The notes under the pieces were generated by a model. It was not told where the DNA came from, searched no databases, and saw only the letters and a program-made list of their open reading frames with translations. This document shows, one piece after another, positions 2,625 to 25,138 of a stretch of 30,848 bases of DNA (positions within the stretch are counted from its first letter, which is position 1; each line of letters begins with the position of its first letter). The stretch comes from a virus. The position numbers and the translations under genes were made by a program. The stretch spans positions 1 through 30,848 of IMG/VR virus record IMGVR_UViG_3300012919_001543. One strand, given 5' to 3'.

Positions 2625-2854
2625 TGTCTATAATAGAAACTAATTTTGGTCATAGAGTTGATCCAAAAAGAATAGCACTTGGCTCAGCTTCAAATATAAG
2701 CAAGCAAGGTGCATTTTATGTTTTTAGTATAAGAGTAGATAGTAACGACGTTAGAGAGTATTCATTTACAAATCACAGCCGAGCTGTTGCTATGAGAAAA
2801 GTTCTAATTGAACATTTGGAAAAGAAAATTAGAAGTAAGGTACGTGTAGCATAA
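2624..2854 (+). CDS. Small hypothetical protein in lysis region
   Basis: 76 residues starting at the ATG that overlaps the endolysin stop, and itself overlapping the next gene by one base (TAATG). It is basic, with a predicted beta-rich middle (QGAFYVFSIRVDSND) and a C-terminal amphipathic helix rich in Lys and Arg. There is no signal peptide or membrane segment. I do not recognise the family. Position in a tightly coupled chain endolysin - this gene - membrane proteins suggests expression at lysis time, but nothing in the sequence shows a lysis role. Confidence 0.65.
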   Translation: MSIIETNFGHRVDPKRIALGSASNISKQGAFYVFSIRVDSNDVREYSFTNHSRAVAMRKVLIEHLEKKIRSKVRVA

Positions 2855-3135
2855 TGTGGGAAATGATTGAAAGAATGGCAAGTGACAGGCTTTGGATATA
2901 CACTGCTATAGCAGGTAGTTTGTTCGGAGCCGCCTTTCTTGCCTACTTTCAAGGCACAAGAATAGGTTTGTGGGCATACAGTTGGTTTGATCGTATACTA
3001 GATCACCTCGTAGTGCGTTGGGGTTGGACCTGGTTTCAACAACCAGAAGACGCTTGGCGACAACGCTACCCTAAAATTACAGCAAAAATTGATGAACTAG
3101 AAAAAAGAATAAAAGAATTGGAATCTAATGACTGA
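2854..3135 (+). CDS. Small membrane protein with C-terminal coiled coil (lysis candidate)
   Basis: 93 residues. A hydrophobic stretch at about residues 14-32 (IYTAIAGSLFGAAFLAYF) is followed by a Trp-rich amphipathic region and a heptad-like C-terminal helix (residues 75-92, IDELEKRIKELES). This is a single-pass membrane protein that probably oligomerises. Its place two genes after the endolysin makes a holin, antiholin or spanin-like role possible. No lipobox or signal-peptidase site is visible, so a classic spanin is less likely. Its stop overlaps the next small ORF by eight bases (ATGACTGA). Confidence 0.65.
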   Translation: MWEMIERMASDRLWIYTAIAGSLFGAAFLAYFQGTRIGLWAYSWFDRILDHLVVRWGWTWFQQPEDAWRQRYPKITAKIDELEKRIKELESND

Positions 3136-3767: not shown

Positions 3768-6413
3768 ATGAGTTACGTAGATGCATTTCACGATAAAGAT
3801 CGTGATGTTATTCAAGTAGTAGAAAGACGTGGCAGTGAACGCAGTTTTACTGAGTATCCTGCACGTTATACTTTCTATTACAAAGATGTTAAAGGTAGAT
3901 ATGTGAGTATCTATGGCGATAAACTCAATCGCATCAGTGTTAACACACTCAAAAACTTCCAAAAAGAAAAGAAGATACACGGACACAAACGACTGTTTGA
4001 AAGTGATATCAATCCTGTGTTCAAGTGTTTAGAAGAGCATTATATCAGCGAAGATGCTCCTAAACTGCACAAATGCTTTTTTGATATTGAGGTTGATTTT
4101 GACAAAGACAAGGGCTTTGCGGATCCGGCAGATCCATTCAATCCTGTAACAGCTATTGCTCTACATTTGGATTGGATAGGCAAAACTATATGTATAGCAC
4201 TAAAGCCAAACAAAATGGAAACAGAACGTGCCAAAGAAATAATGAGCAGTTTTCCTGACAGCATACTGATGGACAATGAATCTGAACTGTTGAGTACATT
4301 TTTAGATCTCATTGATGATGCAGATGTGCTTACTGGTTGGAACAGTGAAGGTTTTGATATTCCCTACATGGTGAATAGAATAGCAAGAGTTCTTGGTAAA
4401 GAGCATACAAGACGTTTTTGTTTGTGGAACAAATATCCACGGCAAAGAGATTATGAAAAGTATGGCAAAGATCAGGTAACATTTGATCTGTATGGCAGAG
4501 TGCATTTGGATTATCTTGAACTGTATCGCAAGTACACATATCATGAAATGCACAGTTACAGTTTAGATGCTATTGGTGAATATGAACTCAAAGAACGTAA
4601 AACAGCCTATGAAGGCACATTGGATCAACTGTACAACAATGACTTTGAAACGTTTATACAGTATAATAGACAGGACGTTGAACTGTTGGTAAAGCTGGAT
4701 GCAAAGCTACAGTTTATTGATCTTGCAAACGTTTTGGCACACTCCAACACAGTGCTACTTCCAACAACAATGGGTGCGGTTGCAGTTACAGATCAAGCTA
4801 TTGTAAATGAAGCACACAGGCTGGGCAAGATAGTTCCAGACAGAACTAGGCGTGGTGATGAATATGCGGCCGCTGGTGCTTATGTGGCAAATCCTAAACG
4901 TGGTTGGCATGAATGGATTGGCAGTATAGACTTGAACAGTCTGTATCCAAGTATTATTCGTGCTTGTAATATGAGTACAGAAACCATTGTTGGACAGATA
5001 AGACAAACTCGCACAAACGAAATGATTGAAGCATCACCAAGTCTAGCACAGGCTTGGGATGGTAAGTTTAATGCACTTGAATATGATCTTGTAATGAACA
5101 AAGACACAGTTGAACTTATGAACTTGGATTTTGATGATGGTAGGCACGTTGAAGGCACAGGTGCTGAATTATATGAACTTATATTCAACAGTGGACAGCC
5201 ATGGAACTTGACTGCAAACGGCACTATATTCAAGACTGACAGCAAAGGTATCATTCCAAATCTACTAGAACGTTGGTACAGTGAACGTAAAGAAATGCAG
5301 AAGAAAGCCAAAGACAATCAAGCTAGTGGCAACAAGATTGACTTTGAATATTGGGACAAAAGACAGTTAGTTAAAAAGATTAACTTGAACAGTTTGTATG
5401 GTGCTATTCTTAATCAAGGCAGTAGATTCTATGATCAACGTCTTGGACAAAGCACAACACTCACTGGTAGATGTATTGCAAGACACATGGCATCACAGTT
5501 GAATAAGATAATTGCAGGCGATTATGATCATCGAGGTGAAGCTATTGTATATGGCGACACAGATAGTGCGTATTTCAGTGCGTATCCGTTACTAAAAGAG
5601 CAAATCAAACAAGGCGAGATTCAATGGAACAAGGATACCGCGATTAAGTACTATGATGCAGTTTGTGAAGATGTCAACGATACATTTCCAGGATTTATGA
5701 AACGTGCATTTAATGTGCCAAAGTCAGTGGGCAAGGTTATTGCCGCAGGTAGAGAAACTTGTGCAACTGCTGGTATATTCATCAAAAAGAAACGTTATGC
5801 TATTATGGTATATGACAATGAAGGTTTTAGAGAAGACAGCGATGACAAGCCAGGCAAAGTTAAAGCAATGGGTTTGGATCTCAAACGCAGTGATACGCCT
5901 GACTTTATGCAAAACTATCTTATGGAACTATTGGTGCTTACACTCACTGGTGGTACAGAAGATCAGGTTATTGACAGCATCAAAGAGTTTAGAACTGCTT
6001 TTCGTGAAAGACCAGGTTGGGAAAAAGGCACTCCTAAACGTGTTAACAATCTTACAAAACACACAAAGGTGTATGAGAAAACAGGTAAGTGTAGCATTGG
6101 ACATGCACTTGCCGCCATTAACTGGAACAAGATGTTGAAAGTAAACAGTGATGCTTATAGTTTGCCAATCACAGATGGTATGAAAACTATTGTATGTAAA
6201 CTAAAAGACAATCCACTAAAAATGACAAGTATTGCATATCCAATTGACGAAGCACGTATTCCTAAATGGTTTCAGCAACTACCATTTGATCACGATGCTA
6301 TGGAAGATACTATCATTGACAACAAAGTTGAAAATCTTATAGGTGTATTGAATTATGATCTCAACAGAACAAAACTTAAAAATACATTTGAAAACTTGTT
6401 CAGCTTTGAATAG
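3768..6413 (+). CDS. 43: DNA polymerase, family B (gp43)
   Basis: 881 residues, close to the 898 of T4 gp43. It replicates the phage genome and proofreads. Exonuclease motifs: ExoI DIE at 106-108 (CFFDIEVDF), ExoII TGWNSEGFDIPY at 189-200, ExoIII YNRQDVELL at 299-307. Polymerase motifs: A, DLNSLYPSII at 388-397; B, K537 to NSLYG at 541-545; C, YGDTDS at 595-600 with the catalytic aspartates. All catalytic residues are intact and there is no split or intein. The clamp gene follows immediately behind its own promoter, as expected for a replisome block. The start at 3768 has no ribosome site, and its promoter predicts a transcript beginning at or next to the ATG. T4 gp43 represses its own translation through a leader hairpin; that leader is not evident here. 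Confidence 0.98.
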   Translation: MSYVDAFHDKDRDVIQVVERRGSERSFTEYPARYTFYYKDVKGRYVSIYGDKLNRISVNTLKNFQKEKKIHGHKRLFESDINPVFKCLEEHYISEDAPKLHKCFFDIEVDFDKDKGFADPADPFNPVTAIALHLDWIGKTICIALKPNKMETERAKEIMSSFPDSILMDNESELLSTFLDLIDDADVLTGWNSEGFDIPYMVNRIARVLGKEHTRRFCLWNKYPRQRDYEKYGKDQVTFDLYGRVHLDYLELYRKYTYHEMHSYSLDAIGEYELKERKTAYEGTLDQLYNNDFETFIQYNRQDVELLVKLDAKLQFIDLANVLAHSNTVLLPTTMGAVAVTDQAIVNEAHRLGKIVPDRTRRGDEYAAAGAYVANPKRGWHEWIGSIDLNSLYPSIIRACNMSTETIVGQIRQTRTNEMIEASPSLAQAWDGKFNALEYDLVMNKDTVELMNLDFDDGRHVEGTGAELYELIFNSGQPWNLTANGTIFKTDSKGIIPNLLERWYSERKEMQKKAKDNQASGNKIDFEYWDKRQLVKKINLNSLYGAILNQGSRFYDQRLGQSTTLTGRCIARHMASQLNKIIAGDYDHRGEAIVYGDTDSAYFSAYPLLKEQIKQGEIQWNKDTAIKYYDAVCEDVNDTFPGFMKRAFNVPKSVGKVIAAGRETCATAGIFIKKKRYAIMVYDNEGFREDSDDKPGKVKAMGLDLKRSDTPDFMQNYLMELLVLTLTGGTEDQVIDSIKEFRTAFRERPGWEKGTPKRVNNLTKHTKVYEKTGKCSIGHALAAINWNKMLKVNSDAYSLPITDGMKTIVCKLKDNPLKMTSIAYPIDEARIPKWFQQLPFDHDAMEDTIIDNKVENLIGVLNYDLNRTKLKNTFENLFSFE

Positions 6414-7214: not shown

Positions 7215-7447
7215 TGGCTGGTGCAATTAACACACCGCTGAGGCAGTTGATAATGGATTGGACCGCACTACAGTTATTGGAAAAAGATCCAGACAATAAA
7301 ATACTAAAAAAACTACGCACTTGGCAACATCCTGAAACAATAGAGTTAGACAAACTATTGTCAACCTTTGAAAGGGATGGCAAATACCCTGAACATTATA
7401 ATTTAGATTGGGGTACAATCAACTATAAGGACTTTATCAAAGAATGA
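7214..7447 (+). CDS. Hypothetical protein between gp45 and TGT-like gene
   Basis: 77 residues, TAATG-coupled to gp45 and overlapping the next gene by four bases (ATGA). The N-terminal half is helical (LRQLIMDWTALQLLEKDPDNKILKKLRTW); the C-terminal half is rich in aromatic and acidic residues. It has no membrane segment and no motif I recognise. In T4 the clamp-loader genes 44 and 62 follow gene 45, but this protein is too short and too different to call gp62. Function unknown. Confidence 0.65.
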   Translation: MAGAINTPLRQLIMDWTALQLLEKDPDNKILKKLRTWQHPETIELDKLLSTFERDGKYPEHYNLDWGTINYKDFIKE

Positions 7448-8973
7448 AGCAACAAGTAAATTTAACTGAACGCAACAAAGACTACGCAGTATTCTTGCCT
7501 AGTATCAGTGGCTTCTATCAAACTTTTATCAGTAAACAACAGGAAACCGGAGACTATGTTCCACAAGATCGTATTCCTGCAGAGTTTGAAAATGGCATTG
7601 AAGGTTGCAACTTTTTAAACAAAGAACAAGCCTATTATGACTACAAATGGGCATTGTACAGTGCCGGGCATGCTCAACTTGATACTACAAAAAGCAATGT
7701 TGAAGAACGCATGATCCAGCTAAGAGATCGCCCAAACACATTTATATTGGGTGATAGTGGTGGTTACCAGATCGCTACAGGTGTTATAAAGTTTGATTGG
7801 CCAAACTTTTTTGAAACGCCAAATCAACCTAACTACGTAGGTGAAGCCGACAAACTGCGACAACGTATAGTTAACTGGCTTGAACATACTGCTGATTACA
7901 GTATGATACTTGATGTTCCCAGCTGGGCCGCCCGTCCTCCTCTCAACAAAAAGACCGGTCTAAGCAACATACAAGAATGCTTGAATGCAACTCAATTCAA
8001 CAGTGACTTTATACTACGCAATAGACAAGGCAAGACCAAATATCTAAATGTGCTACAGGGCAGTGATGATATTGAAGCAGATTTATGGTATGACGAAGTT
8101 AAACATCTGCCTTTTGAAGGTTGGGCAATGGGTGGTAATAACATGCAGGACATGAAACTGTTCTTGCGTAGAATGATCAACCTGCGAGACGATAAACTGT
8201 TGGAAAAAGGTGAGCGAGATCTTATACACGTTCTTGGAACCGGTTTGCTAGAATGGAGTGTGATGCTCACCGCAGTTAAACGTAAACTTCGCGAAACTGT
8301 CAATAGCGATCTGGAAATCTGCTTTGATTGTGCATCGCCGTTTTTGGCAACTGCATATGGACAAATCTACACACAACATGTGCATCAAAATGATAGGTTC
8401 AGTTATATCATGGACAAAGCATTAGATGACAAAAGACTAGCAGACAGTACAATACCATTGCCGTGGACTAGTCCTATTGCTGAGAGACTGAACATGGGTG
8501 ATATATGTTGGTACAAGCCTGGTATGTTAAATAAGTTAGGTAAAGAAGGCAAAACTAGTTGGGATAGCTTCAGTTATTTCTTAATGATGGCACACAACGT
8601 ATATCAACACATTGAAAGTGTACAACGTTCTAATGCATTAACTGATGCAGTGGTGGCCAGTTCTGATGTTGATTTGTATGATTGGCAAAAGAAACTAAAG
8701 CAAAAAAGCAAGATTGGCGAAGTGAATAAATGGGTTCCACGTAATTTGATTTACTTTTATGAACTAGTGGACAAAGTATTTGCAAGTGAAAAGCCAATGG
8801 ATGTAATCAACAACAATAGTGCATTGCTTGAAGAACTCAGCAAAAATAAAAGACACACCAGTACTAACACAATGCATGGTGCATTTTTTGAAGCTGAAGC
8901 AGTTGACAATGCTGATAGTACAATGGAGTTTGATGAACAAGAAGCAATGGATAAACTAAGTGAGGTTGTATAA
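7444..8973 (+). CDS. dpdA: tRNA-guanine-transglycosylase-like protein, DpdA-type DNA transglycosylase
   Basis: 509 residues with the order of TGT motifs: GDSGGYQ at 103-109 (TGT SDSGGFQ, substrate-binding Asp104), ILDVPS at 155-160, LNVLQG at 201-206, WAMGGN at 227-232, LGTG at 264-267 and FDCASP at 294-299. D295 sits where the TGT nucleophile is in FDCxxPTR. TGTs swap guanine for a 7-deazaguanine in tRNA; the phage paralogue DpdA does so in DNA. The TGT zinc motif CxCxxC is absent and the protein is longer than bacterial TGT, with a unique C-terminal 170 residues, both of which favour a DpdA-type enzyme. FolE, QueE and a QueD-like protein elsewhere in the window could supply its substrate. 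Confident of the TGT fold; the DNA target is inferred. Confidence 0.75.
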   Translation: MKQQVNLTERNKDYAVFLPSISGFYQTFISKQQETGDYVPQDRIPAEFENGIEGCNFLNKEQAYYDYKWALYSAGHAQLDTTKSNVEERMIQLRDRPNTFILGDSGGYQIATGVIKFDWPNFFETPNQPNYVGEADKLRQRIVNWLEHTADYSMILDVPSWAARPPLNKKTGLSNIQECLNATQFNSDFILRNRQGKTKYLNVLQGSDDIEADLWYDEVKHLPFEGWAMGGNNMQDMKLFLRRMINLRDDKLLEKGERDLIHVLGTGLLEWSVMLTAVKRKLRETVNSDLEICFDCASPFLATAYGQIYTQHVHQNDRFSYIMDKALDDKRLADSTIPLPWTSPIAERLNMGDICWYKPGMLNKLGKEGKTSWDSFSYFLMMAHNVYQHIESVQRSNALTDAVVASSDVDLYDWQKKLKQKSKIGEVNKWVPRNLIYFYELVDKVFASEKPMDVINNNSALLEELSKNKRHTSTNTMHGAFFEAEAVDNADSTMEFDEQEAMDKLSEVV

Positions 8974-9162
8974 GTGGATCTAAATGAATTGACGAATGAA
9001 GAACTAGAGCAACGATTTCATGATCTTAAAAAACAAGTGGCTAAAATGGAAAGAGAAAGACAACATACTCGAGATCCAGATCATAAAGCACAACTAAGAG
9101 ATCTAAAAAAATCTAAGCTATTGGTAAAAGATATGCTTGACAAAACTAAAAAACAGTGTTAG
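8974..9162 (+). CDS. Small coiled-coil protein, DUF465/YdcH-like
   Basis: 62 residues starting at a GTG that directly follows the stop of the TGT-like gene; a GAGG at 8962-8965 gives suitable spacing. It is one long charged helix ending in LRDLKKSKLLVKDMLDK, which resembles the LKKxKLxLKD end of DUF465/YdcH proteins. Those are small helical proteins of unknown function. No catalytic features are seen. It is translated in series with the TGT-like gene, which hints at a partner or accessory role; that is inference. Confidence 0.6.
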   Translation: MDLNELTNEELEQRFHDLKKQVAKMERERQHTRDPDHKAQLRDLKKSKLLVKDMLDKTKKQC

Positions 9163-9165
9163 GAT
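9137..9165 (+). promoter_or_regulatory. Possible weak promoter before the 9173 gene
   Basis: TTGACA at 9137-9142, 17-nt spacer, TAGGAT at 9160-9165 (four of six). It uses the same spacing as the better promoters in this window and would again place the start of transcription next to the ATG at 9173. The -10 overlaps what could instead be a TAGGA ribosome site, so the call is tentative. Confidence 0.35.
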
Positions 9166-9172
9166 AATAACT

Positions 9173-9703
9173 ATGATTACAGAAAGAACTTACAGTAAAG
9201 ATTCTTACAGTAATGTAAGAATGTTTACAGGCAAAGAAATTGAACATACTCCTGCACATGGCATGCAAACACTATTTGTGGTTGGATTGATGCCTTATGA
9301 TGCTATCATAAGTACTGCAAAACAACATAACTGTGAACACATCTATTTTGGTGCAAACATGAGTTATAAGCTCACAAAAGACTGGCCTGGTCCAAGTCAA
9401 GGATGGACACAATTAATCAAACGTGTGCTAGATGAAACTGATTATTGGGTTACACTTGATTATCCAAATCATGAAAGTAAGTTTGTGCTAGAACAAGGAT
9501 TTCAAGAATATGATAAATTTATACACATGATCAGTGTTCGTATTGCAAGAATAGATGATTATGGTGTAAATGCTTGTGTAAAACTTGATGATATAGGATT
9601 CAATGAAACAAACAGAGGTGTTTGGGTACACAACTTAAAAAAATTACAAACTGATGATGTTCTTACAACATGGTCGATGTATGAACAAGATGAACCTATA
9701 TAG
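9173..9703 (+). CDS. Hypothetical protein between TGT-like and QueD-like genes
   Basis: 176 residues from the ATG at 9173 (MITERTYSKD). The frame extends to an ATG at 9137, but that lies inside the previous gene without a ribosome site, while TAGGATAATAACT precedes 9173. The protein looks globular, mixed alpha/beta, with an N-terminal stretch ending in LFVVGLMPYDAI and a C-terminal strand-rich part (ISVRIARIDDYGVNACVKLDD). It has no membrane span or known catalytic motif. I do not recognise it. Its place between the transglycosylase and a T-fold protein makes a role in the same pathway worth testing. Confidence 0.75.
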   Translation: MITERTYSKDSYSNVRMFTGKEIEHTPAHGMQTLFVVGLMPYDAIISTAKQHNCEHIYFGANMSYKLTKDWPGPSQGWTQLIKRVLDETDYWVTLDYPNHESKFVLEQGFQEYDKFIHMISVRIARIDDYGVNACVKLDDIGFNETNRGVWVHNLKKLQTDDVLTTWSMYEQDEPI

Positions 9704-12357: not shown

Positions 12358-13296
12358 ATGACAAATAAAATTTTAGTAACCGGTGCGTCTGGCTACATAG
12401 GCAGTATTGTATGCACTGAACTTCAAAGACGTGGACATCACGTAACTGGAATTGATAGAAATGTTCCCCGTATCGCGACTGATTGTGATTTTATACAAGC
12501 CAGTCATGACGACGATTATCAATTACAAAAAATTCTACTCAACATTGATACTGTAGTTCATATTGGTGCTACAAGTTTAGTAGGTCCAAGTGTAAAAGAT
12601 CCAAGTACGTACTATCAAAACAATGTAGTTGGAACCAAAATATTGTTGGATGCCTGTGTTGCACAAGGTGTAAAAAAGTTTATATTTGCTTCTAGTGCCG
12701 CCACCTATGGTGATGTAGACAGTGATAGTCTTACAGAAGACACAAATGAGTCACCATGTAATCCATATGGTTGGAGCAAGAGAATGACTGAAATCATGTT
12801 GCAGGATTATTATACTGCATATGGTTTATCAAGTATAAGTTTTAGATTTTTCAATGTAGCAGGTGCAGGCTATGGACTAGGACAAACAAAAAATGCAACA
12901 CATTTGATTGCAAGAATTATGGAAAATCCAAAATTAAAAGTATTTGGTGATAGCTATGATACACCAGATGGAACAGCAGTAAGAGATTATGTGCATGTAA
13001 AAGACATAGCTAGAGCTCATGCTCTAGCGGTAGACTACTTAAATAATATTTCAAACTGCGTAAGGTTAAACTTGGGCAGTGGGAGAGGTACTAGTGTACT
13101 TGATATTATTAAAGCAGTTGATAATCAAACCGACTTGAATGTTAAGTATACGGTTGAAGGACCACGTGCTGGAGACCCGGCAAAACTGGTAGCCAATATC
13201 AGTAAAGCCAAGGACGTTCTTGGTTGGGAACCAGATTACGGGTTGGATAAAATTATTCATTCTGCCTATAACTGGTACCACAACAAAGACGTATGA
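12358..13296 (+). CDS. galE: UDP-glucose 4-epimerase-like, extended SDR
   Basis: 312 residues. NAD-binding GASGYIG at 9-15; active-site SSAATYG and YGWSK (the YxxxK pair) in the middle; RFFNVAGA, then GTAVRDYVHVKDIARAH, then GPRAGDPAKLVAN near the end, all in the places expected for GalE. GalE interconverts UDP-glucose and UDP-galactose; related epimerases act on UDP-GlcNAc or UDP-glucuronate. It starts three bases after the previous stop, with no separate promoter. Together with the glycosyltransferase upstream and the nucleotide-sugar dehydrogenase at 22466 it indicates phage control of a UDP-sugar. Exact substrate not determined. Confidence 0.9.
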   Translation: MTNKILVTGASGYIGSIVCTELQRRGHHVTGIDRNVPRIATDCDFIQASHDDDYQLQKILLNIDTVVHIGATSLVGPSVKDPSTYYQNNVVGTKILLDACVAQGVKKFIFASSAATYGDVDSDSLTEDTNESPCNPYGWSKRMTEIMLQDYYTAYGLSSISFRFFNVAGAGYGLGQTKNATHLIARIMENPKLKVFGDSYDTPDGTAVRDYVHVKDIARAHALAVDYLNNISNCVRLNLGSGRGTSVLDIIKAVDNQTDLNVKYTVEGPRAGDPAKLVANISKAKDVLGWEPDYGLDKIIHSAYNWYHNKDV

Positions 13297-13328
13297 GACA
13301 TCCTCGTCTATAACTCGGAGAAACCTAA

Positions 13329-14003
13329 ATGAAAATTTCAGAAACTATTAGACAAAGACTTGTTGATGCCGGTCAACGATTTCATTCCAATGACAACATC
13401 AGTGAGTATATTCAAGAAGGTGAACTTGAACAATTACAAGAAGAAGTAATGGAAGCATTCCAAGACGTCTTGAAAACTCTTGTTATTGACACAAATAATG
13501 ATCACAACACAGAAGATACTGCAAAACGTATTGCAAAAATGTATGTGCGTGAAACATTTGGTGGTAGGTATGCACCTCCTCCTAAAGTAACAAGTTTTCC
13601 TAATATGGGATATAAATCTCTTTACACAAGTGGACCAATCAGTATAAGAAGTACATGTGCTCATCATTTCCAAAACATTGTAGGTAGATGTTGGATTGGT
13701 ATTGTACCAAATGGTGAAGTCATTGGACTTTCAAAGTTCAATAGAATTGTACATCACATAGCTGAACGCCCACAGATACAAGAAGAGATGACAACAGAAA
13801 TAGCAAATCAGCTACAGACATTTGCAAAAACACCACACATTGCTGTGGTAGTTAAAGCAGAGCACCACTGTATGACGCATCGTGGTGTAAAAGAACATGA
13901 ATCAGATATGACAACTGCAATCATGTTAGGTGCGTTTGAAAAAGATCCAGCACTCAAACAAGAGTTCTACAACATTTGTATGAGCATGAAGGGTCATGGA
14001 TAA
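13329..14003 (+). CDS. folE: GTP cyclohydrolase I
   Basis: 224 residues, the length of E. coli FolE (222). Zinc ligands fall at the E. coli positions: C110 and H113 in STCAHHF, C181 in HHCMTHRG. The segment GLSKFNRIVHHIAERPQIQEEMT is the FolE signature, and the N-terminal helical part is normal. It converts GTP to 7,8-dihydroneopterin triphosphate, the first step of both folate and 7-deazaguanine (queuosine/archaeosine) synthesis. With QueE and a TGT/DpdA-like gene in the same window, the 7-deazaguanine route is the likelier use. A CTCGGAGA ribosome site sets the start. A strong terminator ends the unit six bases after the stop. Confidence 0.95.
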   Translation: MKISETIRQRLVDAGQRFHSNDNISEYIQEGELEQLQEEVMEAFQDVLKTLVIDTNNDHNTEDTAKRIAKMYVRETFGGRYAPPPKVTSFPNMGYKSLYTSGPISIRSTCAHHFQNIVGRCWIGIVPNGEVIGLSKFNRIVHHIAERPQIQEEMTTEIANQLQTFAKTPHIAVVVKAEHHCMTHRGVKEHESDMTTAIMLGAFEKDPALKQEFYNICMSMKGHG

Positions 14004-14008
14004 GATCA

Positions 14009-14032
14009 GAAGGGGCCACTAGGCCCTTTTTT
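14009..14032 (+). terminator. Rho-independent terminator after folE
   Basis: Stem GGGCC (14013-14017), loop ACTA, GGCCC (14022-14026), then six T. Flanking A and T extend the stem. The hairpin core is identical to the one at 15179-15192, after the next gene. Confidence 0.9.
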
Positions 14033-14037
14033 AACGA

Positions 14038-14080: not shown

Positions 14081-15172
14081 ATGAAACTAATCCAATTACT
14101 TACTGCAACAATGCTTGCAGTTACAATGGCGTTTACTGCATACGCAGATGAACCCAAAGACAAAGTCACAGCAGGCTTTATATATGTAGGACCAACAGGT
14201 GATCACGGTTGGACTTATAGACATGATATTGGCAGACAAGATGTTGAAAAACATTTTGGTGATCGAGTAGAAACCATTTTCGTTGAGAGCGTAAAGTATG
14301 GTCCAGATGCAACTCGTGTGATGCGTCAAATGGCTATGAAAGGTGTTGATATTATATTTGCAACTTCGTTTGGCTACATGGACAGTATGTTAAAAGTAGC
14401 AGAAGAATTTCCAAATGTAAAATTTGAACACGCTACTGGATATAAAACTGCACCTAACATGGCGAACTATGGATTGAAACTTTATCAAGCAAGACACGTT
14501 CAAGGTGTTATTGCAGGTATGATGACCAAGACTAACAAAATTTGTTATGTTGCCGCCTATCCAATTCCTGAAGTTATCAGAGAAATCAACACTTATTACT
14601 TAGGTGCAAAGTCAGTAAATCCTGACGTTGATATTGACATTGTATGGGTAATGACTTGGTATGATCCAGGCAAAGAAGCAGATGCCGCCAAGGCATTGTT
14701 AAGCCAAGGTTGTGATATTATTGCACAACACACAGACTCTCCTGCTCCTATTCAAGTTGCAGAACAACAAGGTAAATTTGGTTTTGGGCAAGCAAGTGAT
14801 CAATATAGATTTGCTCCTAAATCACAATTGACCGCAACTATCGATAACTGGTCACCTTACTATATTGCTAAAGTACAAGCAGTACTAGATGGCACATGGA
14901 CAACTGGTACATACTTTGGTGATATTAGCGAGTGCGATGCAACAGGTTGTGCAGTAGGAATGGCACCGTTTACTAATATGCCAGATGATGTAAAAGCAAA
15001 AGCACAAGAAATTAAAGACGCAATTTCTAAAGGTGAGTACTTTGCATTTACAGGTCCTTTAAAAGACAATAGTGGAAAACTAAGATTAGCTGATGGCGAA
15101 ATTGCCGATAGAGCTCATCTTGATACAATGAACTACTATGTAGAAGGTATTGATGCAACTGTACCAGATTAA
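14081..15172 (+). CDS. BMP/PnrA-family periplasmic substrate-binding protein
   Basis: 363 residues. Signal peptide at 1-22 with an AYA cleavage site before D23; no lipobox, so a soluble periplasmic protein. The mature part is a basic-membrane-protein (BMP/PnrA) domain: VTAGFIYVGPTGDHGWTYRHDIG at the start, IIFATSFGYMDSMLKVAEEFPNVKFEHATG in lobe one, and IVWVMTWYDPGKEADAAKALLSQGCDIIAQHTDSP in lobe two. BMP proteins bind purine nucleosides for NupABC-type ABC importers. No matching ATPase or permease adjoins it, so it would have to use a host transporter. It is a single-gene unit between twin terminators, with an AGAAAGG ribosome site. Marine phages are known to carry another binding protein, PstS; a BMP protein is not one I know from phages. 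Confidence 0.92.
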   Translation: MKLIQLLTATMLAVTMAFTAYADEPKDKVTAGFIYVGPTGDHGWTYRHDIGRQDVEKHFGDRVETIFVESVKYGPDATRVMRQMAMKGVDIIFATSFGYMDSMLKVAEEFPNVKFEHATGYKTAPNMANYGLKLYQARHVQGVIAGMMTKTNKICYVAAYPIPEVIREINTYYLGAKSVNPDVDIDIVWVMTWYDPGKEADAAKALLSQGCDIIAQHTDSPAPIQVAEQQGKFGFGQASDQYRFAPKSQLTATIDNWSPYYIAKVQAVLDGTWTTGTYFGDISECDATGCAVGMAPFTNMPDDVKAKAQEIKDAISKGEYFAFTGPLKDNSGKLRLADGEIADRAHLDTMNYYVEGIDATVPD

Positions 15173-15174
15173 TT

Positions 15175-15197
15175 AAAAGGGCCACTAGGCCCTTTTT
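15175..15197 (+). terminator. Rho-independent terminator after the BMP gene
   Basis: AAAA, stem GGGCC (15179-15183), loop ACTA, GGCCC (15188-15192), then five T. The A-run on the 5' side makes it potentially bidirectional. It has the same stem and loop sequence as the terminator at 14009-14032. Confidence 0.9.
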
Positions 15198-15205
15198 CAA
15201 TTTCC

Positions 15206-15236
15206 GGGTGAAACATTTTTTAGTTAAAGAACACCC
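15206..15236 (+). promoter_or_regulatory. Leader of the ABC importer operon with a hairpin
   Basis: GGGTG (15206-15210) can pair with CACCC (15232-15236) across a 21-nt loop that contains the TGAAACAT...GTTAAAG words shared with the BMP leader. An AGAGGAGA ribosome site follows just before the ATG at 15262. No TPP or other known riboswitch consensus is recognisable. Regulatory function is unproven. Confidence 0.35.
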
Positions 15237-15261
15237 ATAAACCTAAGAGGAGATAAAAAAA

Positions 15262-16197
15262 ATGAAACTATTAAAATCACTAGCAGTTAGTGTGGTAGCA
15301 TTACTATTCGCAACTACTGTACACGCAAAAGAAGTTACACTTCTTATGGATTGGTTCCCCCAAGGTAACCAAAGTGTTTTCTGGCAAGCAATGTTAGATA
15401 ACGACGAACATGATCTGAAAATTATTGTAAAGCCAGGTGGTCCTGGTGTAAACACCGCCGCACAAACGGCCGCAGGTTCAGTTGAGTTTGGTCTTCAAGG
15501 ATCAGATTCGGTTATGTCTGCAAACGCCAAAGGTGCTGGTTTAGTTGCAGTATTTGCCAACTTAGATCACGTTCCATATACACTCGTATTCCATCCTGAT
15601 CAAGGAATCAAATCCATTAAAGATCTTGACGGCAGACGTTTTGCAGTCAAAATGGGTGTTACTTACTGGAAGTGGGTAAAGAAAGAGTATGGCGTAAGTG
15701 CTGATGAATTCCCGCTTAAAGGCGACTTGGGTCTATTCGCTAGAGAAAAAGAAATGTTTCAACAGGGCTATTCACTTTTCCTACCTGCTAGATTGGCCGC
15801 AAAAGGTGTAGAAACAGATCAAATCACACTAGAATCTTTAGGTTACAGACCTTATAGTGTGTTGTTCACTACACAAAAAATGATTGATGAAAATCCAGAA
15901 CTTGTACAACAGGTGGTGGATAGACTGAGAGCGGCTTTTGCCAAATCTTTGAACAATCCTGATCCAACTGCGGATCTAATTCTTTCAAAGTCTAAAAAAG
16001 TTACAAGAGACATTCACATGGGTGCTATTGAACTTATGAAAGCAGACTTCTTGCCTAAAGACTACAGCAAACTTGGCTGTATGAAATCAGCAAGATGGGA
16101 AGAGCTTTCAGCACAGTTGAAAGAAGTTGATATGGTGCCTGCAGATTTTGATGCATCATCGTCATACAATCTATCATTCCTTGGCAACTGCGAGTAA
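15262..16197 (+). CDS. NMT1/THI5-type (ThiY/TauA/SsuA-like) periplasmic substrate-binding protein
   Basis: 311 residues. Signal peptide at 1-22, cleavage after VHA before K23. The mature protein starts EVTLLMDWFPQGNQSVFWQAM, which matches the LDWxPNxxHxGxYxA opening of NMT1/THI5 proteins. GPGVNTAAQTAAGSVEFGLQGSDSVMSA and GIKSIKDLDGRRFAVKMG are the usual second and third motifs. It binds a small solute in the periplasm: thiamine pyrimidine (HMP), riboflavin, or sulfonates such as taurine are the family's ligands, and the sequence does not decide among them. It is the first gene of a full importer operon, followed by its ATPase after 12 bases and then the permease. Confidence 0.9.
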   Translation: MKLLKSLAVSVVALLFATTVHAKEVTLLMDWFPQGNQSVFWQAMLDNDEHDLKIIVKPGGPGVNTAAQTAAGSVEFGLQGSDSVMSANAKGAGLVAVFANLDHVPYTLVFHPDQGIKSIKDLDGRRFAVKMGVTYWKWVKKEYGVSADEFPLKGDLGLFAREKEMFQQGYSLFLPARLAAKGVETDQITLESLGYRPYSVLFTTQKMIDENPELVQQVVDRLRAAFAKSLNNPDPTADLILSKSKKVTRDIHMGAIELMKADFLPKDYSKLGCMKSARWEELSAQLKEVDMVPADFDASSSYNLSFLGNCE

Positions 16198-16209
16198 GGA
16201 GTAGAGCTA

Positions 16210-16926
16210 ATGATAAGAGTTTCCAAAGTAACAAAACACTTTGATGAAGTTCAAGCATTAGCAGAAGTAAATTTAGATATTGCCACAGGCGAGTTCATCA
16301 GTATAGTTGGACCTTCAGGCTGTGGCAAGTCTACTTTGCTTAGAATAATTGCTGATCTAGTTTCAACCAATGGTACAATAGAAAAGCCCAACAAAGGTGC
16401 TTTTGTTTTCCAAGACAGTGCATTGTTACCTTGGCGTACAGTGCAAGGCAATGTAGAACTACTAATGGAACTAGAAGGAACAGAAAACAAAAGAGCAAAG
16501 GCCTCTGTCGCTCTTAGACAGGTAGGTCTAAACGGCTTTGAACGTTCATATCCACATCAACTAAGTGGTGGAATGAAGATGCGACTTAGTCTAGCAAGAA
16601 GTCTCGTTTTAGATCCTGAATACATTTTACTAGACGAGCCATTGAGTGCAGTAGATGAACTTACCAGAGAAGTACTGCAAGAAGAATTATACGAAATGTG
16701 GAGCAGGGATAAATTCACTGCGATACTAGTTACACACAACATCGCTGAAGCAGTATACCTCAGCAACCGAGTTGTTGTAATGAGTCCACGCCCAGGTAAA
16801 ATCACAGACGTTGTAAACATTGGATCCAGTTTAGGTTTTAAAAAACGCACACCAGAAATTAGAACAACACCACAGTTCAGCAAAGTGGTTAATGAAATAG
16901 CAGGAAAGTTAAGAACATGGAAGTAA
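16210..16926 (+). CDS. ABC transporter ATPase, TauB/SsuB/ThiZ type
   Basis: 238 residues, standard length. Walker A GPSGCGKST at 34-42, Q-loop Gln68 in FQDSALLPWRTV, signature LSGGM at 118-122, Walker B YILLDEP at 138-144, and H-loop His176 in VTHNIAEA. The LLPW after the Q-loop and the DELTREVLQEEL segment are typical of the nitrate/sulfonate/taurine/thiamine-precursor importer group. It couples ATP hydrolysis to import through the permease encoded next. An AAGGAG site precedes the ATG. All catalytic residues are intact, so this is not a decaying copy. It overlaps the permease start by ten bases. Confidence 0.95.
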   Translation: MIRVSKVTKHFDEVQALAEVNLDIATGEFISIVGPSGCGKSTLLRIIADLVSTNGTIEKPNKGAFVFQDSALLPWRTVQGNVELLMELEGTENKRAKASVALRQVGLNGFERSYPHQLSGGMKMRLSLARSLVLDPEYILLDEPLSAVDELTREVLQEELYEMWSRDKFTAILVTHNIAEAVYLSNRVVVMSPRPGKITDVVNIGSSLGFKKRTPEIRTTPQFSKVVNEIAGKLRTWK

Positions 16927-17690
16927 AAAAAATTATACCACCCATACTGATACTTGCACTGTTTTTGGGAGGTTGGCATATAGGTGCACTGATTTACGAT
17001 ATGGCATTCCTATTACCAACACCATATGCAGTATTACAGATATTCATACAAGATTTTAATATTATTATGATAGGACTAAAACAAACTTTCCAGGCCGCCT
17101 TTACAGGTTACATTATTGCTACTGTACTTGGTATTGCTGTCGCAACTATAATGAGTTTGAGTAAAATACTTGAACGCAGTTTATATCCTTATGCGATACT
17201 GCTACAAACAGTGCCTGTGGTTGCAGTAGCACCTCTAATTGTGCTTTGGTTTGGATTTGAAATAAAAAGCATTATCATAATCAGCATTATTATTGCACTA
17301 TTTCCTATCATCAACAACACACTGCTTGGACTAAAGTCAACTCCAAAAACATTGGTAGAATTGTTTGACTATCACAAAGCCAGCAGAGTTACAAGTTTTT
17401 TTAAACTGCGTTTTCCTAGTGCAATACCAAACATAATTGCTGGTATGAAAATAAGTGCAGGACTTAGTGTTATAGGTGCTATAGTTGGAGAATTTATAAT
17501 TGGTTCAGGAAGTGAACAAGGAGGCTTGGGTGTACAGATTATCTATGCACAGGCAAATTTAGAAACATCATTGGTTATGGCGTTGATACTTACAGCAACT
17601 GGTTTAGGGTTTGCATTTTTTATGACAATACAAACTATAGGTTGGTATCTGATGCGTAAATGGCATGAATCAGAAATGAAAGCGAGTTAG
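16917..17690 (+). CDS. ABC transporter permease, TauC/SsuC/ThiX type
   Basis: 257 residues with about six membrane helices (first at about 5-27, last at about 222-248). LPTPYAVLQIFI after the first helix is typical of the family. The cytoplasmic EAA-like loop that docks on the ATPase is seen around residues 140-172 (VELFDYHKASRVTSFFKLRFPSAIPNI), followed by GAIVGEFIIGSGSEQGGLGVQI. It forms the inner-membrane channel for the solute captured by the 15262 protein. The start overlaps the ATPase gene, and the next gene begins one base after its stop, so all are one transcript. Confidence 0.95.
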   Translation: MEVKKIIPPILILALFLGGWHIGALIYDMAFLLPTPYAVLQIFIQDFNIIMIGLKQTFQAAFTGYIIATVLGIAVATIMSLSKILERSLYPYAILLQTVPVVAVAPLIVLWFGFEIKSIIIISIIIALFPIINNTLLGLKSTPKTLVELFDYHKASRVTSFFKLRFPSAIPNIIAGMKISAGLSVIGAIVGEFIIGSGSEQGGLGVQIIYAQANLETSLVMALILTATGLGFAFFMTIQTIGWYLMRKWHESEMKAS

Positions 17691-17691
17691 T

Positions 17692-18720
17692 ATGCAAACA
17701 ACTGTAGAAAGAAGAAAACTAGGACTCACACAATACGACAATAGAACAGCAGGTGGTTACACACTGTTTGCTCCACAAACAGGAGGTGGTCGAGTACCAC
17801 TCATTGATGATGGTGGTGAACTAGTACATGAATGGAATATGCCTGTTAGACCAGGTAGAGATGCAGTAATACTGCCCAATGACAATCTTGGTTACAACGG
17901 CAGTCATAGTAAAAGCGTTGATCTTTATCCGCCATGGGATATTTGGCACGGTGGACACTTTATGGAAGCAGATCGTAAAAGCAATATACTTTGGGAGTAT
18001 GAAGATCCTTATGCACATCATGATGCACAATGGTTAAATGACGGATTGCTTTACGTAGCGGCGGCTGATTACAAAGATGGTCGTTACAGTGATATTGTAC
18101 GAATAGTTGACAGACAAGGTAATGTCAAATGGGAATGGTGTGCATGGAAAAAACTTAGTGAAAAGAATTGGCCTGTACATGAAGGTATGCCTGACAATCA
18201 TTGGCCCATGATCAATGGAGTACATTTGCACGATAATATCGTATACATGAGTTTGAGAAATACAAGTGGTATTATTGGTGTACACATTGACAGCAAAGAT
18301 GTAGTTTGGTCTGTGAAATGGCCTGATGTTGCACAACAACATTGTCCTGTTGTTACTGATAAAGGAACACTGATTGCATTCTGCAATGGTAATATTCGAC
18401 CACCAGGTGTGCATCACAGTAGAATTGTAGAGTTTGATCTAGCAAGTAAAGAATGCGTTTGGAGTTATGTAGACAACATGCCTCCTAGTTTCTTTTCACC
18501 TTACATGGGTAGTGTACAAAGATTGTGGAATGGTAATACATTTATTTGTGAAAGTGCATTTGGTAGATTGTTTGAAGTAACGCCAGAAGGCGATACTGTT
18601 TGGGAATACGTTATACCTGAGTTTGAAGAATATCCAGCACCTTTGAACCAATTTATAACCGGCAAACAAAACTCGTGTTTCAAAGCACACAGATACAAGG
18701 AATGGCAATATGGTTTATGA
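17692..18720 (+). CDS. Arylsulfotransferase (ASST)-like beta-propeller protein
   Basis: 342 residues. The opening GGYTLFAPQTGGGRVPLIDDGGELVHEWNM is the ASST pattern of a Gly-rich loop followed by a D-x-x-G-x-x-V-x-x-W repeat. Similar W-E/W-x repeats recur (SNILWEYEDPYAHHDAQWLNDG, GNVKWEWCAW, KECVWSYVD, GDTVWEYVIPEF), as expected for propeller blades. The DPYAHHD segment may hold the active-site His. ASSTs move sulfate from aryl sulfates to phenols. Classic ASST is periplasmic; here no signal peptide is seen, so it should stay in the cytoplasm unless the start is wrong. It lies in the importer operon one base after the permease, which suggests it acts on the imported compound. Confidence 0.75.
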   Translation: MQTTVERRKLGLTQYDNRTAGGYTLFAPQTGGGRVPLIDDGGELVHEWNMPVRPGRDAVILPNDNLGYNGSHSKSVDLYPPWDIWHGGHFMEADRKSNILWEYEDPYAHHDAQWLNDGLLYVAAADYKDGRYSDIVRIVDRQGNVKWEWCAWKKLSEKNWPVHEGMPDNHWPMINGVHLHDNIVYMSLRNTSGIIGVHIDSKDVVWSVKWPDVAQQHCPVVTDKGTLIAFCNGNIRPPGVHHSRIVEFDLASKECVWSYVDNMPPSFFSPYMGSVQRLWNGNTFICESAFGRLFEVTPEGDTVWEYVIPEFEEYPAPLNQFITGKQNSCFKAHRYKEWQYGL

Positions 18721-18883
18721 TAAAACTACAGATCCAGATGCTGGACTTAGATTAGATTTTACATCCAGAAAACGTGAGGGCTTTATGTCCTCAACTGGTG
18801 ATTCAATGCGACATGAGATGCAGAGAATGGTTGATAAAATAAACGAACTTGAAAAAAGAATAATAGAATTGGAGAGAAAATGA
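18710..18883 (+). CDS. 57-residue coiled-coil protein
   Basis: ATG at 18710 overlaps the end of the ASST-like gene, and its TGA overlaps the next ATG (ATGA at 18880). The product has a polar N-terminus (DPDAGLRLDFTSRKREGF) and a C-terminal heptad helix (VDKINELEKRIIELERK). The C-terminal helix resembles the end of the membrane protein at 2854 (DELEKRIKELES). Both junctions are typical of coupled genes, which supports it as real. Role unknown; perhaps an oligomerisation or adaptor peptide. Confidence 0.55.
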   Translation: MVYDKTTDPDAGLRLDFTSRKREGFMSSTGDSMRHEMQRMVDKINELEKRIIELERK

Positions 18884-19740
18884 TACCAGTAATAGATTTA
18901 AAATCAGATACCGCTCTTAAAGAAATTGAAGATGCTTATACTTCAATAGGATTTGCAGTTTTTACTAATCATTTTAATGAGCAAGAACAACGCACATACA
19001 ATTTATGGTTTGATACTATGAAACAGTTTTTTGAACTTGATCAAGAAACTAAACTAAAGTATCCATACGAAGGTGATACAAATTTAGGATATTCAGTAAT
19101 GGGTGCTGAGAATGTTGATCCAACTGCTCCAAAAGATTTGAAAGAAAGTTTCAACTATAACAACGACAGAATGGGCGACCATTTGTGGCCTGATATTGAA
19201 GGATTCAAAACAACTGCTAGAGCCACAGTTGATATAGCAGATAGATTAACCATTAAAATTATGACCATGTTTGATAGGATTCTTAACAGACCTGATATGC
19301 CTCTTACACGTTGTCATAAAGAAAACTACAGTACAACAAGAGTTATTCACTATCCTGCTTACACAGGTCCTATTGAAAACAAACAAATGAGAATTGGAGA
19401 ACACAGTGATTATGGAACTATTACATTACTGTGGCAAATCAATGATGTACCAGGACTTGAAGTACAAGATTTAGATGGTGCTTGGCATCCTGTGCCTTAT
19501 GCTGAAGATGGTGTGGTCTGCAACATTGGTGATTTACTACAACGTTGGACAAACGATTATTTTAAAAGCACAAAACATCGTGTCGTAAATACTCATATAG
19601 ATCAAGAACGTTGGAGTATGCCTCATTTTGTAGATCCAAAACCTGGTACAATGGTAGAAAATTTAACTAGTGAAACTGCAAAATATGAGCCTATAGAAAG
19701 CCTTGCATATCTTAAATGGAGATTGGCACAAAGTTATTGA
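18880..19740 (+). CDS. 2-oxoglutarate/Fe(II) oxygenase, isopenicillin-N-synthase-like
   Basis: 286 residues. MIPVIDLKS at the start is the usual IPNS-like opening. The iron triad is H175 and D177 in EHSDYGTITLL and H233 in STKHRVVN; the 2OG-binding pair is R244 and S246 in RWSMPHF. The LEVQDLDGAWHPVP strand between them is typical of the family. These enzymes hydroxylate or oxidise small molecules using oxygen and 2-oxoglutarate. It is the last gene of the importer transcript. A binding protein, ATPase, permease and oxygenase in that order recalls tauABCD, but this oxygenase is not of the TauD family. Substrate unknown. A new promoter begins inside its stop region. Confidence 0.9.
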   Translation: MIPVIDLKSDTALKEIEDAYTSIGFAVFTNHFNEQEQRTYNLWFDTMKQFFELDQETKLKYPYEGDTNLGYSVMGAENVDPTAPKDLKESFNYNNDRMGDHLWPDIEGFKTTARATVDIADRLTIKIMTMFDRILNRPDMPLTRCHKENYSTTRVIHYPAYTGPIENKQMRIGEHSDYGTITLLWQINDVPGLEVQDLDGAWHPVPYAEDGVVCNIGDLLQRWTNDYFKSTKHRVVNTHIDQERWSMPHFVDPKPGTMVENLTSETAKYEPIESLAYLKWRLAQSY

Positions 19741-20003: not shown

Positions 20004-20537
20004 ATGGCGATAAAAAAGAAATACTATAGCTGGCAAGACCTTGAAGATCAGGTACAGGATCTAGTATATCAACTGTACAAATGCCCGTGGAAACCGGACT
20101 ATATAGTAGGACTTACCCGTGGTGGACTGACTCCTGCAATAGTTTTAAGTAATAGATTAGCTATTCCAATGTACGCACTAGATGTACGTTTGCGTGATAC
20201 CACTGAAGATTACACTGCTGAAAGTAACAAAGGCATGGCACAAGATGCACTAGGTTATGATGATAGATCAGATGGTATAAAATGGAATAGTGAAAAACAA
20301 AAAAATATATTGATTGTAGATGATATAAATGATTCTGGTGCAACTTTTGAATGGATCAAACAGGATTGGCAAAATAATTGTGAACCACGCAACGAACGTT
20401 GGAAACATGTATGGCATCAGAATGTTAAGTTTGCAGTACTAACAAACAATCTTGGAAGTACGCAAGACGTTGACTTTTATGTTGACGAAGTTAACAAAAC
20501 GGAAAAACCAGTTTGGCTGGTATATCCATGGGAGTAA
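20004..20537 (+). CDS. Type I phosphoribosyltransferase, xanthine/guanine-PRT-like
   Basis: 177 residues. The PRPP-binding motif ILIVDDINDSGATF lies at about residues 100-113, with the two adjacent acidic residues in place. KPDYIVGLTRGGLTPAIVLSNRL near the N-terminus is the pyrophosphate-loop strand of type I PRTases. The C-terminal VWLVYPWE matches the hood end (VFPWE) of xanthine/guanine/hypoxanthine enzymes. Those salvage a purine base plus PRPP into a nucleotide. An inserted Asp/Ser/Lys-rich loop at about 68-95 is longer than usual. Its likely role is purine salvage for phage DNA or for 7-deazaguanine synthesis. The purine preference is inferred from sequence resemblance only. Confidence 0.85.
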   Translation: MAIKKKYYSWQDLEDQVQDLVYQLYKCPWKPDYIVGLTRGGLTPAIVLSNRLAIPMYALDVRLRDTTEDYTAESNKGMAQDALGYDDRSDGIKWNSEKQKNILIVDDINDSGATFEWIKQDWQNNCEPRNERWKHVWHQNVKFAVLTNNLGSTQDVDFYVDEVNKTEKPVWLVYPWE

Positions 20538-23588: not shown

Positions 23589-23764
23589 TGAAAAGAAGTA
23601 TATTAAAAGATATGTGGATAGCATTTAGAAAAGATGATCGTCCACATTGGGAAGTAATGGCAGATGATGGAATGAATAAATTTTTAAAATTTTGTATATT
23701 CTGTGTATTTGCATTTTTCTCATATCATTTTATAGTTGCATGTATAGATAGGTTTTTTGGATGA
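23588..23764 (+). CDS. 58-residue membrane protein
   Basis: ATG in a TAATG junction; its TGA overlaps the queE ATG (ATGA at 23761). Residues 1-31 are basic and polar; residues 32-53 form one very aromatic hydrophobic segment (FLKFCIFCVFAFFSYHFIV) with three Cys in or near it. It is a small membrane protein upstream of queE in the same transcript. There is no family I recognise. Confidence 0.6.
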   Translation: MKRSILKDMWIAFRKDDRPHWEVMADDGMNKFLKFCIFCVFAFFSYHFIVACIDRFFG

Positions 23765-24657
23765 AACTAAGATACAGTGAAGCATTTTACAGTGTGCAAG
23801 GCGAAGGCAAGTTTGTAGGAGTACCAAGTGTATTCTTACGTACATTTGGTTGTAACTTTCGCTGTATGAATTTTGGTTTGAACAGAAACGAACCAATGCG
23901 TGACGTAAAACAAAAAGCTGGAATCAAACACAATCAAGAAGTACAAGGATTATTGGACAACAAAATACACGAAACTACAAAAGTATTTGAAGACTTGCCT
24001 ATCATACACACAGGCTGTGATACGTATGCAAGTATCTATCCTGAATTTAAACATTTTAATATGCTTAAAGAAGTAGATGAAGTAGTAGAACATTTAGTAA
24101 GTCTTTTGCCAGAGGGCAAATGGACATGCGATAATGGCCAGGACATACACTTAATAATGACTGGCGGTGAACCGTTGTTGGCGTGGCAACGACTGTACAT
24201 TGAATTATTTGAACATCCACGTATGCAGGATTTAAAAAATGTCACATTTGAAACAAACAGTACACAATTACTACATGATAATTTCCGAGACTATCTCAAC
24301 AACCACGACAGAATTACTTGGACATTTTCATGCTCGCCTAAACTATCCGTTAGCGGAGAACCTTGGGATACTGCTATCAAGCCTAATGTTGTTGCTGATT
24401 ACAATGATATACAAAACAGTGATCTTTATCTCAAATTTGTTGTTGCTGATCGTACAGATATTGATGAGGCTGGCAGAGCTGTCGATGAATATCGCCAAGC
24501 AGGCATTGAATGTCCTGTATATCTTATGCCATTGGGTGGTAGGTCTGAAGAGTACAACCTCAACGTTAAAGAAGTGGCAGAAATATGTATGGAAAAAGGT
24601 TGGCGGTTTACGCCCAGATTACACATCAGCCTCTTTGGAAATGCCTGGGGTACGTGA
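23761..24657 (+). CDS. queE: 7-carboxy-7-deazaguanine synthase QueE (radical SAM)
   Basis: 298 residues. The opening YSVQGEGKFVGVPSVFLRTFGCNFRC is the QueE signature. The enzyme turns 6-carboxytetrahydropterin into 7-carboxy-7-deazaguanine with a 4Fe-4S cluster and SAM. The usual cluster motif is CxxxCxxCDT. Here C31 and C35 are normal, but the third ligand appears only at C86 in HTGCDT, after about 50 inserted residues. The SAM-binding MTGGEPLL and the late RLHISLFGNAWG follow as expected. Variation of this loop is known in QueE proteins, so the insertion is probably functional. With FolE, a QueD-like protein and a TGT/DpdA-like enzyme nearby, the product most likely ends up in phage DNA. 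Confidence 0.93.
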   Translation: MKLRYSEAFYSVQGEGKFVGVPSVFLRTFGCNFRCMNFGLNRNEPMRDVKQKAGIKHNQEVQGLLDNKIHETTKVFEDLPIIHTGCDTYASIYPEFKHFNMLKEVDEVVEHLVSLLPEGKWTCDNGQDIHLIMTGGEPLLAWQRLYIELFEHPRMQDLKNVTFETNSTQLLHDNFRDYLNNHDRITWTFSCSPKLSVSGEPWDTAIKPNVVADYNDIQNSDLYLKFVVADRTDIDEAGRAVDEYRQAGIECPVYLMPLGGRSEEYNLNVKEVAEICMEKGWRFTPRLHISLFGNAWGT

Positions 24658-24727: not shown

Positions 24728-25138
24728 ATGTTTAAAAATTTAGTAGCAAAGATACCAGAATTTTGTTTGAGTCACTGGCTTTTAAGACTACCAGTGTCTA
24801 TTGTTTTTATTCAACAAGGTTTGGACAAAATACCTGTTGATGTAGAAACTGCTGAATCATTTGGATTAACATATTTGGTTTGGTGGGTAGTTGCTTACGG
24901 TGAACTAGGCGCCGGTATTGGATTGCTAGTAGGTGGCTTGTTAGCCAGCTGGGAAAAGTTATATGAATACGGAGATATCATAACACGATTTTCTGGTATT
25001 ACTATAGCAAGTATCATGACAGGTGTGATATGGATTGGAGAACCTGAAAGTTTTTGGGACGTGGTTTGGTATGATAACTTGCATGTATTTTTATGGGTAG
25101 GTGGAATGTATTTTGCACTTAGAGGCAACAGGACGTGA
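24728..25138 (+). CDS. DoxX-like four-helix membrane protein
   Basis: 136 residues with about four hydrophobic segments (about 20-32, 48-75, 92-104 and 115-130). LLRLPVSIVFIQQGLDKIP at the start of the first helix is the DoxX pattern (R-L, then F, then G-x-x-K). The GELGAGIGLLVGGLL helix also fits. DoxX-family proteins are small inner-membrane proteins linked to quinone or redox reactions, often of unknown function. A phage copy might tune host respiration or protect the membrane. The gene ends in a GTGA overlap with the zinc-ribbon gene. Confidence 0.65.
   Translation: MFKNLVAKIPEFCLSHWLLRLPVSIVFIQQGLDKIPVDVETAESFGLTYLVWWVVAYGELGAGIGLLVGGLLASWEKLYEYGDIITRFSGITIASIMTGVIWIGEPESFWDVVWYDNLHVFLWVGGMYFALRGNRT

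Follow-up and report, generated by a model that had tools for sequence, protein, structure and literature searches.

The gene for a BMP family binding protein at positions 14081 to 15172 (plus strand) of a 30,848-base virus record, the whole of which was analyzed and is referred to here as the window, appears to be part of a phage-encoded operon for the capture and salvage of nucleobases, a reading to which we assign a probability of roughly two in three. The evidence that we count for this operon comprises a base pocket in the BMP, a conserved linkage between BMP and 2OG-Fe(II) dioxygenase genes, neighboring genes for adenine phosphoribosyltransferase (APRT), and purine operons of similar content in bacteria. 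In the proposed mechanism, the secreted BMP would bind free guanine, free adenine, or a close derivative of these purine bases in the periplasm and would pass it on to a BMP-family type II ABC importer of the host, as is thought to occur with PstS for phosphate; a thymine-7-hydroxylase (T7H)-like dioxygenase would oxidize (e.g., demethylate) the imported base or one related to it, and the product would be converted by a phosphoribosyltransferase (PRT) to a nucleotide for phage DNA synthesis. The cargo of a type I importer with a THI5-type binding protein, also encoded in the window, is probably another N-heterocycle, which may be a pyrimidine. Among known systems, phage PstS (PMC10976474) and bacterial purine operons come nearest, and the combination seen here appears to be a variant of these known kinds.

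The BMP gene is intact, with an ATG start and 363 codons for amino acids, and residues 28-276 of its product match the Pfam Bmp domain (PF02608; E 2e-48, 165 bits against a curated cut-off of 24.1), which bears out the original prediction of a BMP/PnrA-type protein. Judged by reading the sequence, the N-terminus (MKLIQLLTATMLAVTMAFTAYADEP) resembles a Sec signal that lacks a lipobox cysteine. Compared with viral relatives, the gene has a pN/pS of 0.18-0.25, and values of 0.06-0.25 were obtained across the six genes from BMP through the dioxygenase. While 176 relatives of the BMP were found among IMG/VR candidate stretches, a search of the isolate phage collection identified no close homologue of the BMP, of the second binding protein, or of the dioxygenase, and the module thus apparently has not been seen in cultured phages; a search of a literature library of partial coverage found nothing relevant on BMP family importers in phages.

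With regard to the ligand, the solved proteins nearest to the window BMP are Brucella 3s99 (E 2e-116) and AtzT of Pseudomonas sp. ADP (E 1.5e-96; structures 6pi5, 6pi6, and 6pii), and PnrA (2fqw) was absent among its significant matches. AtzT was crystallized with guanine carried through purification and binds guanine and adenine with KD values of 0.11 µM and 2.5 µM, respectively, with no binding of GTP; the set of ligands assayed did not include nucleosides, and adenine has been modelled in the site of 3s99 (PMC6834077). AtzT residues were mapped onto the BMP by an offset that reproduced all nine residues named in that study (PMC6834077). The direct ligand positions of AtzT (Y45, S97, F98, E165, W194, N218, and N220) correspond to W44, S96, F97, E164, W193, H217, and D219 in the BMP; none of the seven varies across 31 viral BMPs, and 3s99 carries the identical W/S/F/E/W/H/D set. 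AtzT, 3s99, and the window BMP belong to the same BMP branch and share the aromatic sandwich, the Ser, the Phe, and the Glu of the purine site, whereas N218 and N220 of AtzT are H217 and D219 in the phage protein. Because D219 takes the place of N220 and second-shell residues also differ, the preferred purine of the phage BMP may not be guanine. AtzT further differs in that its operon includes its own importer genes, while no cognate permeases are encoded alongside the phage BMP.

Judged by these aligned positions, the BMP site would be a purine base site, with a base a likelier ligand than a nucleoside. Loss of the ligand-binding residues had been named in the original prediction as what would speak against purine capture; an alignment against AtzT, used in place of PnrA, showed no such loss, and the seven invariant positions support capture of a purine. 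The accompanying label of "nucleoside-type" is, however, probably wrong. A BMP that binds purine nucleosides in the manner of PnrA, in an operon for nucleoside salvage, would be in keeping with a Pfam family named after PnrA and with the adenosine deaminase found among the deaminases of related bacterial operons, but the closest solved relatives hold bases (guanine in AtzT and the modelled adenine in 3s99; PMC6834077) and the enzymes that recur in these loci are PRTs, which use bases; we thus regard nucleoside salvage as unlikely.

The most conserved partner of the BMP is the dioxygenase (18880 to 19740, plus strand; PF03171/PF14226), which the original prediction missed along with the module formed by the dioxygenase and PRT genes. 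When the 80 BMP loci in IMG/VR were grouped at 90% identity, the dioxygenase gene was found to start between -4 and +57 nt from the BMP stop in 27 of the 29 viral clusters, where its start codon often overlaps the BMP stop codon, and after 188 and 1,666 nt in the remaining two; in the window, an importer cassette separates the two genes. Among solved structures, the dioxygenase matches T7H of Neurospora (5c3p) best; the residues with which that enzyme binds iron, 2OG, and the free base have been described (PMC4787775). All of these are kept in the phage enzyme, which has an HxD..H iron triad (H175, D177, and H233), an RxS motif for 2OG (R244 and S246), and, for the T7H base set N87/E122/R190/Y217/F292, the residues N68, E89, R154, Y178, and F250. 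By contrast, overall similarity to T7H is distant, N294 of T7H is D252 in the phage enzyme, and the partners of the phage gene point to purines. A divergent second dioxygenase, encoded in cassettes of B/C type without a BMP, lacks three of the base-binding residues (N, R, and Y). We infer that the phage enzyme is a T7H-like dioxygenase with a putative reaction on a free base.

Downstream of the dioxygenase gene, the window encodes a PRT (20004 to 20537, plus strand) to which no base could be assigned. The PRT domain that had been predicted here is present (PF00156, E 9e-16), but its assignment to the xanthine/guanine type is not supported, with 40 bits on NCBIfam PRK09177 against a cut-off of 138. 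An APRT gene lies directly after the dioxygenase gene in about a third of the testable clusters (8 of 26), and, on one curated APRT model, the three members that were tested scored above the cut-off. Other viral loci have a xanthine-PRT-like gene before the BMP gene, or PurA, a second APRT, and a thymidine-kinase-like gene nearby; in L006, an adenylosuccinate synthase gene (12714-13916) is located between the BMP-dioxygenase pair and a PRT gene.

BMP proteins usually work with a double ATPase and a pair of type II permeases. A search of the window for these found no double ATPase and no BPD_transp_2 permease pair; the ATPase that is encoded has a single domain, and the one permease belongs to the BPD_transp_1 family. 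The description of the BMP as an orphan thus held with regard to a BMP-type importer in the window, but not with regard to any ATPase or permease beside the gene, as a type I importer is encoded directly downstream. This second importer was considered as the partner of the BMP and rejected, given the wrong permease type, a binding protein of its own, and its occurrence in several records without a BMP. A host importer that the BMP could use was sought through relatives of the BMP. Three SAR116 genomes each encode a second BMP, 50-53% identical and with the same ligand site, adjoining a complete type II importer, and the BMP gene of roseobacter SB2 is adjoined by genes for an ATPase, two permeases, and xanthine dehydrogenase. 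In a phylogenetic tree, the lone SAR116 BMP and the SB2 BMP nest within the viral clade (88/89 and 98/87). The type II importers of SAR116 and SB2 are candidates for the host importer, a finding that favors the docking proposed in the original prediction; that the phage BMP would act by docking on such a type II importer of its host is still the preferred proposal. A comparable role has been considered for cyanophage PstS, a periplasmic binding protein thought to feed the host phosphate ABC importer during infection (PMC10976474); PstS is likewise a phage-borne binding protein, but differs from the BMP in ligand class, and the BMP has a fixed dioxygenase partner, salvage enzymes, and, here, a complete second importer.

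Bacterial purine operons (L130, L134, L143, L150, and SAR116 L085) resemble the phage loci in that a BMP gene lies beside a related dioxygenase gene, together with genes for a xanthine PRT or purine deaminases. In the gammaproteobacterial locus L134, a related dioxygenase (~30%) follows the BMP in an operon that also encodes a double ATPase, two permeases, 8-oxoguanine deaminase, a xanthine PRT, and adenosine deaminase; in L130, as read from its sequence, the BMP and related dioxygenase genes are accompanied by a xanthine dehydrogenase gene and by other genes of purine metabolism. These gammaproteobacterial operons differ from the phage loci in the low identity of their dioxygenases (~30%) and in the presence of type II importer genes. 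The BMP-dioxygenase pair found in four SAR116 genomes, by contrast, is 72% and 67-68% identical to that of the phage and has no importer genes alongside; SAR116 L085 has the order BMP, dioxygenase, XPRT, and its PRT scores 245 bits against the cut-off of 138.

Positions 15262 to 17690 encode a complete type I ABC importer of the NitT/TauT/THI5 group in one operon, namely a secreted NMT1/THI5-type substrate-binding protein (15262 to 16197; PF09084, E 6e-21) with thiamin/HMP binders as its top folds, an ATPase (16210 to 16926; PF00005, E 9e-28) with readable Walker A, signature, and Walker B motifs, and a permease of the BPD_transp_1 family (16917 to 17690; PF00528, E 2e-25), all on the plus strand. 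The ATPase and permease genes overlap, and a gap of 1 nt separates the permease gene from a gene for an ASST-like beta-propeller of the arylsulfotransferase family (17692 to 18720, plus strand; PF05935, 52 bits against a cut-off of 24.2), which has Cpz4 and AssT as its top folds and no visible signal peptide. A 57-aa ORF (18710 to 18883, plus strand) that is conserved in L188 overlaps both the end of the ASST-like gene and the start of the dioxygenase gene; the gene overlaps, including this ORF, and the 1-nt gap suggest translational coupling. The 3' part of the 57-aa ORF (18836-18873) repeats positions 3085-3122 at 87%, inside the end of an ORF at 2854-3135. The ThiXYZ, Ssu, and Tau type I importers likewise have a binding protein, an ATPase, and a single permease in one operon, whereas the cassette described here belongs to T4-like marine phages and is accompanied by genes for an ASST-like protein and a dioxygenase.

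The importer trio was found in about 27 viral contigs. It occurs with a BMP in the window and in L078/L170, with a distant BMP that keeps most of the ligand site in the D-type group (L173-L189), and without a BMP in L162, L165/L188, L167, L169, L171, L172, and others; the Bmp domain was absent from the whole records of six BMP-less types. The slot between the dioxygenase gene and the upstream neighbor of the BMP, a gene for a FolE-like GTP cyclohydrolase I (13329 to 14003, plus strand; PF01227, E 3e-46) that forms the edge of the slot, is variable and is filled by a BMP, a type I importer, or both. Among the D-type loci, the importer cassette of L173 includes an aspartate carbamoyltransferase gene (12411-13301), and the dioxygenase gene of this locus is followed by a weak nucleosidase-like gene (15192-15671); in L175, a 377-residue membrane-like protein (8273-9406) that matches nothing in Pfam or NCBIfam is encoded between a PRT gene and the gene for the distant BMP.

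With regard to the cargo of this second importer, we lean toward a nucleobase-related compound, with thiamin, its pyrimidine, or a sulfonate as alternatives. That the importer and the ASST-like gene instead represent an unrelated cassette, dedicated to thiamin or its pyrimidine precursor or to a sulfonate or sulfate ester and inserted by chance beside BMP and dioxygenase, is a serious contender, to which we give somewhat less than even odds. Fold matches of the second binding protein (model mean pLDDT 70), which rank thiamin-bound 4nmy, Thi5, and ThiY ahead of TauA and SsuA, would suit such a cassette, as would membership in the ASST family and the presence of the cassette in only 1 of the 80 BMP loci. 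Chance insertion is harder to reconcile with the four arrangements in which the cassette recurs alongside PRT and dioxygenase genes and with its renewed pairing with a BMP in the separate D-type lineage. In addition, the closest annotated ASST homologue, a Salmonella gene (55%), lies upstream of a xanthine/uracil permease gene, and cellular relatives in two bacterial genomes (L252 and L253) place THI5/NMT1-type importer genes near genes for 8-oxoguanine deaminase or cytosine deaminase and a 2OG dioxygenase. A stricter search of 369 gammaproteobacterial genomes yielded no ASST homologue, and E. coli genomes yielded no DNA match. A tie between ASST and nucleobases through alphaproteobacterial homologues was also considered and rejected, as the contexts of these homologues were mixed and included no nucleobase context.

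The BMP gene is flanked by two 25-nt repeats, each consisting of a terminator hairpin and a T run; the first copy (GGGCCACTAGGCCC plus T run; 14010 to 14034, plus strand) has an RNA fold z of -3.6, and the second (15176 to 15200, plus strand) is 92% identical to it. A 14-nt palindrome occurs in the window only at these two repeats and was never found in shuffles. Another phage, represented by a single 80 kb contig (L165/L188), shares most of these genes at 93-98% identity but has no BMP; a single terminator copy is located between its FolE and binding protein genes. Given repeats on either side of the gene and a single copy at the empty site, the BMP behaves as a mobile single-gene cassette, apparently exchanged at the terminator repeats by either gain or loss. 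PeSL cassettes of T4-type phages (Comeau 2014, cited in PMC4503421) are similar in that repeated terminator stem-loops bracket a gained or lost gene; an early promoter within the repeat would be a further mark of such a cassette, and promoter-like sites in the BMP region are at chance level. Matches to the late-promoter motif TATAAATA were fewer than expected by chance. The near-identical phage without a BMP and the bracketing repeats are also what would be expected if the BMP were a moron, carried as passive cargo and playing no part in infection; the low pN/pS, the invariant ligand site, and a fixed partner gene across 29 clusters make this explanation most improbable.

Besides FolE, the window encodes QueE (23761-24657) and, at 7444-8973, what we take from sequence reading and prior knowledge to be a DpdA-like gene (no Pfam match), which suggests 7-deazaguanine DNA modification. 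The original prediction had offered this pathway as one purpose of purine capture. FolE and the DpdA-like gene do occur together, in the same 10 of 20 viral records that carry a BMP or the importer, and with QueE they would fit a BMP that mainly supplies purine for GTP and hence for the modification. Neither FolE nor DpdA was found, however, in viral records of 117, 96, and 133 kb with the BMP-dioxygenase pair; these are fragments, and the result argues against a necessary link without disproving it. A necessary tie was thus set aside as unsupported, and 7-deazaguanine supply as the main function is, in our view, quite improbable.

If the proposed capture and salvage operon functions as outlined, it would let infected cells tap the seawater purine pool for viral DNA. 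Purines are traded in the surface ocean, where they are exuded by Prochlorococcus, and their use is near-universal in SAR11 and extends to about half of the SAR116 genomes (PMC11698098). A more speculative extension, which we put forward as a rather doubtful possibility, is oxidative nucleobase salvage in marine phages, in which the BMP would capture methylated or otherwise modified purines from seawater via the host importer, the dioxygenase would strip the modification to yield adenine or guanine, the adjacent PRT would form the nucleotide, and some phages would add their own ABC importer for a second base. The phage module also makes the role of the BMP-linked dioxygenase in bacterial purine operons testable, and the window provides a case in which one phage encodes a complete ABC importer as well as a lone binding protein. 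With regard to the phage itself, the window encodes a T4-type DNA polymerase (3768-6413), the nearest relatives of which, at 46-49%, are those of the rhizobial jumbo phages Sinorhizobium phage Phosso and Agrobacterium phage Atu_ph07. Finally, a gene for a DoxX-family membrane protein is located at 24728-25138, and members of the same family are encoded near the BMP-dioxygenase pair in several viral loci.
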